A stretch of 36,704 nt of DNA from Candidatus Poseidoniaceae archaeon (GTDB taxonomy: Archaea > Thermoplasmatota > Poseidoniia > Poseidoniales > Poseidoniaceae). The position numbers were made by a program, and so were the translations under genes. The DNA lies in the NCBI GenBank assembly GCA_028353405.1, contig JAOMOG010000015.1, forward strand, positions 1 through 36,704. Reading direction: 5' to 3'. Below, piece by piece: positions 35,118-36,704 of this stretch; position 1 is the stretch's first letter, and the number at the start of each line of letters is the position of its first letter. The notes below the pieces were generated by a model. It saw only the letters and a list, made by a program, of their open reading frames with translations, was not told the DNA's origin and did not search any database.

Positions 35118-35861
35118 ATGATACAAAACAATACCAACAAGAACAAATCTTGTTATAACCAATCAACCAGCCCCAAGAGTATGGTGGCCTCGGAGTCAGA
35201 TCAAAAGAAGCGGATAAAGAGCTACATTGAAGCGTTCAAATCATTATCCGAAAAAGATCCAGATGGTTTTGAATCGATCGCTCCCGAATTACTGCGGAGG
35301 TCTGTATGGAATTGGAGGGGGGCAGATCCTTACTTTTCAGAAAGACTGTCTCTTTGGTTAGACAAAGAGTGCCTATGGACTCCATTCCACGAGATAATCC
35401 CGAAATCAAAAAACACAGTTCTAGACCGCCCTGCCGTCAACGCTCCTTCTAAAGAGCATCTCAGTTCGATTCACAAAGAACTATTTTCTCGATTAGAAGA
35501 AAAGTTTGATGGCGATTTTAACCGGTGGGATGCGGCGATTAGAGATCAATTCATTGTGTTGGGTATGTTGGCAATCGCCGGAAAGGGCGGCGAAAAACAA
35601 GGTCGAATGGTCCATAACCTCGGAATTAGCGAGGGAGAAAATGGCCTAATACAAGGATCAAATGCAATCAGGGCTGCAAAAATAGCAATCTCTCGGATGG
35701 CAAAACCAATGAAAATATTCAATCCAGCAAAAGGCCATGGTTATGAAAGAGTTCACAGTTTCAGTGATTCAAATACATCTGATTTAGTTGCTCGATATGT
35801 TCTCAGCCATGATGCTTCAACATTACTACCACAATCACTATTGCGGAATAGCTATGATTGA
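35118..35861 (+). CDS. Hypothetical protein (247 residues)
   Basis: I do not recognise this protein. It starts at ATG 35118, with ATG 35181 (MVASESDQKKR) as an alternative that drops an Asn-rich leader. It is hydrophilic and helical (KKRIKSYIEAFKSLSEKDPD, LSSIHKELFSRLEEKFDGDF, WDAAIRDQFIVLGMLAIAG). The stretch GRMVHNLGISEGENGLIQGS has a helix-turn-helix-like rhythm, and RAAKIAISRMAKPMK is basic, so nucleic-acid binding is possible but unproven. There is no signal or membrane helix. A palindrome precedes the gene and a hairpin-rich region follows it. Confidence 0.6.
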   Translation: MIQNNTNKNKSCYNQSTSPKSMVASESDQKKRIKSYIEAFKSLSEKDPDGFESIAPELLRRSVWNWRGADPYFSERLSLWLDKECLWTPFHEIIPKSKNTVLDRPAVNAPSKEHLSSIHKELFSRLEEKFDGDFNRWDAAIRDQFIVLGMLAIAGKGGEKQGRMVHNLGISEGENGLIQGSNAIRAAKIAISRMAKPMKIFNPAKGHGYERVHSFSDSNTSDLVARYVLSHDASTLLPQSLLRNSYD

Positions 35862-35886
35862 GACATCCCATCGCGCTCTTCATATA

Positions 35887-36170
35887 GGGTCGTGTTGTTC
35901 CAATTGTTAGAGGGAACGAAGGGTTCCCTATGATCGACCCGTGGAATACGATGCAATTGGAGAACATAATCAAGGATACTAATAAAGCGAATAAACAAGA
36001 CACTGCGAGCCAGTGTCGCGCCATCTCAACAGTGCTTGAGAGCCGTCTAAATCGCTTTAATAATGCCTTGAAAACAACTCGAAGCCAGTGCGCAGCATCG
36101 TATATATCCCAAATTGTGAATCCCATTACGTGGGCTGCACAATTGGAAAGAGAGAACAGCGGGTTCTCTA
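35887..36170 (+). other. Hairpin-rich intergenic region, candidate structured RNA or regulatory element
   Basis: This stretch between two genes holds several perfect inverted repeats: GGGTCG/CGACCC (35887-35892 with 35935-35940); TCCAATTG/CAATTGGA (35899-35906 with 35954-35961), which interleaves with the first pair as a pseudoknot would; AGGGAAC/GTTCCCT (35911-35929); GACACTG/CAGTGTC (35999-36017); TCTCAA/TTGAGA (36024-36041); CCAAATTGTG/CACAATTGG with inner CCCA/TGGG (36109-36146); and AGAGAAC/GTTCTCT (36151-36169). The first and last 7-bp hairpins have the same layout and differ in the stem by a paired G-C to A-T change. An 81-codon frame (35930-36175) spans it but has no clear protein features. 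It does not resemble the RNase P, SRP or 5S RNAs I can recall. Confidence 0.45.
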
Positions 36171-36206
36171 TGTAAAAACAAACTAAAAAATAGGAAGTGA
36201 AAAAAC

Positions 36207-36704
36207 ATGAATGATAAAAAAATAATGAGCGTGCTAATTGCAATGTTCCTTGCTATCTCTGCATTAACTGCAGTGAGTGGTGACGGATCTGACCCGAACG
36301 ACCCTACCGACGGTGGGGCTGATTGGGACGGTGACGGTTTAACCAATGCTGAGGAACAAGCTGAAGGCACTAATATGAATAATGCAGATAGCGATGGAGA
36401 CGGCCTACCAGATGGCTGGGAAGTTTCCAACGGTCTAAACCCAACTAACGGTGGCGATGGAAATGCAGATCCTGATGGAGATGGCTTGACCAACTCCCAA
36501 GAATATGCAAAGGGTACCAACCCTAACAACTCCGACACTGATGGTGATGGTAAGGCTGACAACGTTGATCAGTTCCCAAACGACCCTAACGACGGTGAAT
36601 ACTCCGACTCTGATGGTGACGGCATTCCTGACGCATATGACCCTGATTTTACTGAATCAGGTGCTGGCGGCGGCAATGGTGAAACCGAAGGCGGTGGCGA
36701 ATCC
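36207..36704 (+). CDS. Secreted DxDGD-repeat protein (3' partial)
   Basis: Begins at ATG 36207 and stays open to the window end (166 codons visible). A signal peptide (MNDKKIMSVLIAMFLAISAL) is followed by thrombospondin-3/dockerin-like calcium units: DWDGDGLTNAEEQAEGTNMN, DSDGDGLPDGWEVSNGLNP, DPDGDGLTNSQEYAKGTNP and DTDGDGKADNVDQFPNDPND. A Gly-rich linker (GAGGGNGETEGGGES) then begins, suggesting further domains beyond the window. GGAAGTGA, ending about 6 bases before the ATG, resembles an archaeal ribosome-binding site. It is a surface or secreted protein of unknown activity, preceded directly by the hairpin-rich region. Confidence 0.9.
   Translation, partial: MNDKKIMSVLIAMFLAISALTAVSGDGSDPNDPTDGGADWDGDGLTNAEEQAEGTNMNNADSDGDGLPDGWEVSNGLNPTNGGDGNADPDGDGLTNSQEYAKGTNPNNSDTDGDGKADNVDQFPNDPNDGEYSDSDGDGIPDAYDPDFTESGAGGGNGETEGGGES

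Follow-up and report, generated by a model that had tools for sequence, protein, structure and literature searches.

A candidate structured and translated mRNA leader upstream of a secreted TSP3-repeat protein gene in Candidatus Poseidoniales

The window analysed here is a stretch of 36,704 nucleotides, one contig of an incomplete archaeal genome from Candidatus Poseidoniales (Marine Group II archaea), which are abundant archaea of the ocean. From sequence comparison, its region 35887–36170 is best interpreted as the 5′ leader of an mRNA that encodes a secreted TSP3/QG-repeat protein, a leader that is conserved, structured and itself translated. Two near-invariant hairpins, hp5 and hp3, bracket an upstream open reading frame (uORF) that runs through the intervening structure and through hp3 itself. 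This architecture can be regarded as largely secure, whereas the full reading, in which the hairpins serve in recognition or 5′-end protection and ribosomes sweep the leader, has roughly even chances of being correct. The features on which the argument rests are as follows.

35879–35886, + strand: TATA box TTCATATA, identified by the spacing of TT[CG]A[AT]ATA
35909–35929, + strand: 5′ hairpin hp5, AGAGGGAACGAAGGGTTCCCT, at the predicted transcript 5′ end, with paired changes
35941–35943, + strand: GTG of the Shine–Dalgarno-like CCCGTG(A) motif that precedes the uORF start
35948–35954, + strand: left arm of helix P2, holding the uORF start codon; partner 36095–36101
35951–36175, + strand: uORF of 74 codons plus TAA, open in 85 family loci
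35971–35988, + strand: left arms of helices P3 (35971–35974 with 36067–36070) and P4 (35981–35988 with 36054–36061), with paired changes
36000–36016, + strand: internal hairpin P5 (36000–36004 with 36012–36016)
36109–36146, + strand: hairpin H6 (36109–36118 with 36138–36146; inner stem 36122–36125 with 36131–36134)
36149–36169, + strand: 3′ hairpin hp3, AGAGAGAACAGCGGGTTCTCT, overlapping the uORF end, with paired changes
36193–36199, + strand: Shine–Dalgarno-like GGAAGTG of the main gene, seen in the sequence and conserved in the genus alignment
36207–36704, + strand: main gene for the secreted TSP3-repeat protein, truncated where the contig stops

The leader is tied to a single gene. In every homologous locus that is long enough, the downstream gene codes for the same secreted protein, in which TSP3 repeats come after a signal peptide, and in the window its product matches PF18884 (TSP3_bac, E = 2.1e-15). 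Complete copies of the protein have 516–581 residues and include a QG-rich tract; the protein consists of a signal peptide and TSP3 repeats, together with a long QG/QQG tract and acidic D-rich repeats (574–581 residues in L271–L273 and L276), and its gene is followed by a very large TSP3-repeat ORF (2,629 residues in L273). The repetitive QG tract is probably where the window contig breaks off.

At E ≤ 1 and with weak matches counted, a 345-nt region spanning the leader detects homologues in 153 of the 171 family genomes, and in 19 of the 21 good family genomes. Identity is mostly 70–75% in the best full-length matches from the same genus, in which the ends are most conserved and the interior sequence is variable. 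Of 293 genomes of the order, 209 contain the hairpin pattern GRGAACNNNGGGTTCYC, usually as a same-strand pair, and both families are represented among them; a reversed control of the pattern gave almost no matches in these 293 genomes, and the pattern itself is absent from 21 genomes of a third family of the class, a sister lineage. Named records that carry it belong to Candidatus Poseidoniales, Poseidoniaceae and Thalassarchaeaceae, with a few contigs under bacterial names. The latter include metagenome-assembled contigs labelled Rhodobiaceae, Gammaproteobacteria and Rickettsiales (L137, L159 and L205, with hairpin pairs in L137 and L159), which are probably misbinned Poseidoniales.

The promoter is equally regular. 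In 100 of 103 loci from both families, the beginning of TT[CG]A[AT]ATA is 30–31 nt away from the AGAG of hp5 downstream, and the sequence in between is variable; from this spacing, the predicted 5′ end of the transcript most likely lies at hp5. A conserved structure is thus preceded by a promoter and always followed by the same gene. The preliminary description, made from the sequence of the window alone, had considered either a leader or cis-regulatory RNA or a small repeat-bounded element. The former, a leader RNA that regulates the secreted-protein gene in cis, is strongly supported by the conserved gene order, the spacing of the promoter and the covariation seen in helices and hairpins.

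Folding of the + strand (35880–36180) gave −95.6 kcal/mol as compared with −70.4 kcal/mol for 100 dinucleotide shuffles (z = −5.07), none of which folded as well. The − strand gave z = −4.6, which is what the complement of a structured RNA should give. The signal extends beyond the end hairpins: with these removed, the leader middles of 31 diverse representatives had a mean z of −3.3, and all values were below 0. Several further inverted repeats are indeed present between the end hairpins, as had been described. In a composite structure for 28 sequences from the same genus, 96.5% of the pairs are standard and 15 have changes on both sides; its covariation score is 0.173 versus 0.067 after shuffling, although its partial derivation from the same 28 sequences favours the structure; structures slid by 1–3 columns scored 0.02–0.07. 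Paired changes preserve both end hairpins and most internal helices. P3 and P4 are paired in 100% and 94.6% of cells, respectively, with seven pairs changed on both sides; the corresponding values are 91.4% and three pairs for P5, and 96–100% and five pairs for H6. P2 is kept and nearly invariant within the genus. In other genera its first-position G always has a C partner where the partner motif was found (9/9), and this motif is missing in many of their loci. Two further pairings were set aside. The interleaved repeat originally taken for a pseudoknot (TTCCAATTGT, 35898–35907, with 36139–36148) lacks support because its left arm shows no conservation and falls after the TATA box but ahead of the predicted transcript, and a long-range alternative from RNAalifold that pairs AACCCGTG with hp3 was dropped, its AACCC being lost in several genera.

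The same RNA carries an open reading frame. The uORF begins about 21 nt past hp5, and the GTG of its Shine–Dalgarno-like motif lies 9–11 nt before the ATG in each of 85 family loci, at a distance of 10 or 11 nt in all but one of them; one place is counted twice (L027 and L091). An 81-codon frame beginning at 35930 had been noted earlier; the conserved start is instead the in-frame ATG at 35951 (75 codons with the stop), upstream of which most relatives have an in-frame stop. In the 85 loci the uORF frame contains no stops, whereas the two alternative frames contain 286 and 308, and the 31 diverse representatives contain none, where about 87 would be expected per frame; the frame is thus free of stops beyond chance. 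The uORF spans hp3 and stops 0–37 nt after it. Among the Thalassarchaeaceae, a uORF was found in 25 of 32 leaders, a set sorted by protein motif that includes one Poseidoniaceae locus (L074); some of these use GTG or TTG as the start codon in the corresponding position, and two further leaders (g12) have a relocated ATG. A Shine–Dalgarno-like GGAGG(AG) lies just downstream of the uORF start (35959–35963; GGAGA in the window), and the frame in which it is read varies within f2.

Coding and RNA function had initially been posed as alternatives, with strong codon-level conservation expected to speak against the latter. Both hold: the frame is kept open, but its codons are only weakly conserved, with a pooled pN/pS of about 0.84. 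This value is no proof of neutrality, because pairing restrains synonymous sites and because some clades have values of 0.56–0.67, so that some constraint on the peptide is possible. The uORF might accordingly be viewed as a genuine, fast-evolving microprotein, with the RNA structure secondary, given its uninterrupted frame in all 85 loci, an N-terminal M-x-x-E-[ED] that is common in the family and the lower ratios in those clades. We consider this unlikely. The C-terminal part is encoded across hp3 in any of three frames, so that, depending on lineage, the peptide ends in ERENSGFSV, KERTAGSLS or VEREQRVL; the GGAGGAG near the start likewise changes frame in f2; length ranges from 59 to 103 codons across the family; no Pfam match was found for the peptide; and the pooled ratio is high, even though structure also lowers pS.

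The position of the uORF relative to the main gene brings classical translational coupling into consideration, whether by termination and reinitiation or by unmasking of the main ribosome-binding site. Of 123 uORFs, 116 stop within an interval that extends from 36 nt ahead of the main ATG to 8 nt past it, and a few lineages have overlaps (L061 and L074). However, the median distance from uORF stop to main ATG is 31 nt, and a gap of about 20 nt nearly abolishes coupling in both Haloferax volcanii and E. coli (PMC10666635), which makes reinitiation unlikely. The main ribosome-binding site is moreover predicted to be open with or without the leader (0.69 versus 0.68 unpaired), hence accessible without the uORF, and there is nothing obvious to unmask. 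Coupling in either form therefore seems improbable.

As to the end hairpins, the window contains AGGGAAC/GTTCCCT (35911–35929) and AGAGAAC/GTTCTCT (36151–36169) with 5-nt loops, exactly as first described, and both sit in a 24-nt repeat whose copies are 240 nt apart. The paired difference between them, A/G with T/C, is real, and homologues add more. The hairpins are invariant within the genus and vary across genera, where hp5 appears as GGGGAC/GTCCCC or GGAGAC/GTTTCC, and hp3 changes from AGAGAAC/GTTCTCT to AGGGAAC/GTTCCCT in several genera and to AGAAAAC/GTTTTCT or AGAGGAC/GTCCTCT in others. The ATG that follows each hairpin in the window, also remarked upon earlier, is not conserved, as relatives carry other letters there (AGAA, ATGA, AAGA and others after hp5; mostly GTG after hp3). 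One-sided changes comprise four kinds that yield G-U and none that yields A-C, a pattern that favours RNA over DNA symmetry. Separately, one-sided T to A changes, from GTTC to GTAC or, in L212, to GCAC, recur at the same pair in separate lineages and leave an A-A or G-A mismatch there (hp5 of L106, L156, L220 and L212; hp3 of L109, L175 and L198).

Near-invariant inverted repeats, one of them overlapping the predicted transcription start, could also be DNA operators, that is, palindromes at +1 and near +240 to which a transcription factor binds as a dimer. This is a doubtful explanation, because DNA would be blind to the difference between G-U and A-C on which the one-sided changes turn. The sites are not symmetric palindromes either, their loop (NNNGG) being asymmetric and in the same orientation at both; their spacing varies from 201 to 325 bp with no helical phase; and the sequence between them covaries as RNA. 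A small MITE-like mobile element bounded by the hairpins, the other option raised at the outset, would fit repeated ends around a variable middle but has a negligible chance of being correct, since there is a single locus per genome in a fixed context, always upstream of the same gene, and a search of the window's own genome for further hairpin copies found only these two.

Comparison with 4,227 Rfam families at the gathering score identified only a tRNA in the window and nothing at the leader, and relaxation to E ≤ 10 over 35700–36300 added two chance-level matches; at neither setting did a known riboswitch aptamer match. Archaeal RNase P RNA (RF00373) and SRP RNA (RF01857) were ruled out at this locus, the genome's copies lying elsewhere (G000:C51 and G000:C8, respectively). 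A literature search of partial coverage found nothing on the leader.

Natural variants show which parts of the leader can be dispensed with. In a collection of 130 distinct leaders, anchored on hp5 and hence with hp5 in all 130, hp3 is present in 111 and missing from 19. Both uORF and hp3 occur in 107 leaders, an ORF in the uORF position without hp3 in 16, hp3 without a uORF in four, and neither in three. The 16 hp3-less leaders include cases in which the ORF is the main gene itself (L196 and L256) or is fused to it (L174, an in-frame fusion from which the intervening stop is absent). At the level of genera, members of g14 have lost hp3 and kept a 45–62-codon ORF that ends shortly before the main ribosome-binding site; in g20 the uORF is gone and hp3 contains an A-A mismatch, while g21 has neither uORF nor hp3. 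With seven of 130 leaders lacking a uORF by the criteria used, and 19 lacking hp3, neither element is essential everywhere.

A reduced version was also observed on contigs from a virus catalogue. Four IMG/VR contigs of 56–166 kb (L256–L259) carry the same TSP3/QG gene with hp5 20–31 nt before its ATG and no uORF, and the metagenome-assembled contig PBHZ01000025.1 (L196) has the same layout of hp5 followed by the gene. A phage-type glycosyltransferase is encoded on L258, and a tRNA-synthetase-like gene is present on both L258 and L196; a viral origin of contigs of this type is likely, and a tblastn search with the virus-contig protein against named phage records returned no match. Most of the viral matches to the 21-mer pattern, however, fall inside a different viral coding gene (L250–L252, L254, L255, L260, L261 and L263–L270); these matches are probably due to chance, because they lie within a coding gene and lack the promoter context.

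How the leader might act is suggested by two of its properties: the near-invariance of the stems suggests recognition by a factor or protection of the 5′ end, and the open track suggests that the passage of ribosomes itself matters. Hp5 and hp3 could be recognized by one RNA-binding factor and/or shield the 5′ end. Ribosomes translating the uORF would then sweep the leader, displacing structure or factor at hp3, and would keep the RNA covered up to the main ribosome-binding site, so that the stability or output of the main mRNA would follow ribosome traffic, with the uORF peptide mostly a by-product.

Partial parallels to this putative mechanism are known from bacteria. The 5′ untranslated region of ompA is an example of a protective hairpin at the 5′ terminus, and hp5 similarly lies at the predicted extreme 5′ end of a surface-protein mRNA; by contrast, the Poseidoniales stem is nearly invariant over an order and has a second copy 200–325 nt downstream, with the uORF between. 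In attenuation of the E. coli pyrBI type, a leader ORF of unimportant sequence crosses a hairpin and stops just past it, as does the Poseidoniales uORF. However, no U-tract follows hp3, which is therefore not an intrinsic terminator of the bacterial type, and archaeal termination differs. The B12 riboswitch leader of ppe2 in Mycobacterium tuberculosis contains a uORF and resembles the present case in that a structured 5′ leader harbours a translated uORF, which is closely followed by the main ORF (PMC11260477). In contrast to ppe2, the Poseidoniales leader is archaeal, has twin hairpins and no known aptamer or ligand, its uORF crosses the structure in any of three frames, and the gap between uORF and main gene looks too long for reinitiation. 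A more specific proposal is offered tentatively: a new form of archaeal post-transcriptional control, in which the hairpin pair would be read by an RNA-binding factor, the open-track uORF would let ribosomes reset the state, and virus-like contigs would carry a stripped-down version before their own copy of the gene.

As far as comparative sequence data can indicate, the leader represents an order-wide RNA family of the Poseidoniales with structural support and no Rfam entry, attached to what is perhaps a major secreted product. On the same basis, it provides a clear case in which selection keeps a reading frame open while its codons are nearly free. The natural losses of each of its parts imply that their functions are separable, and the architecture as a whole points to an as yet unknown kind of gene control.
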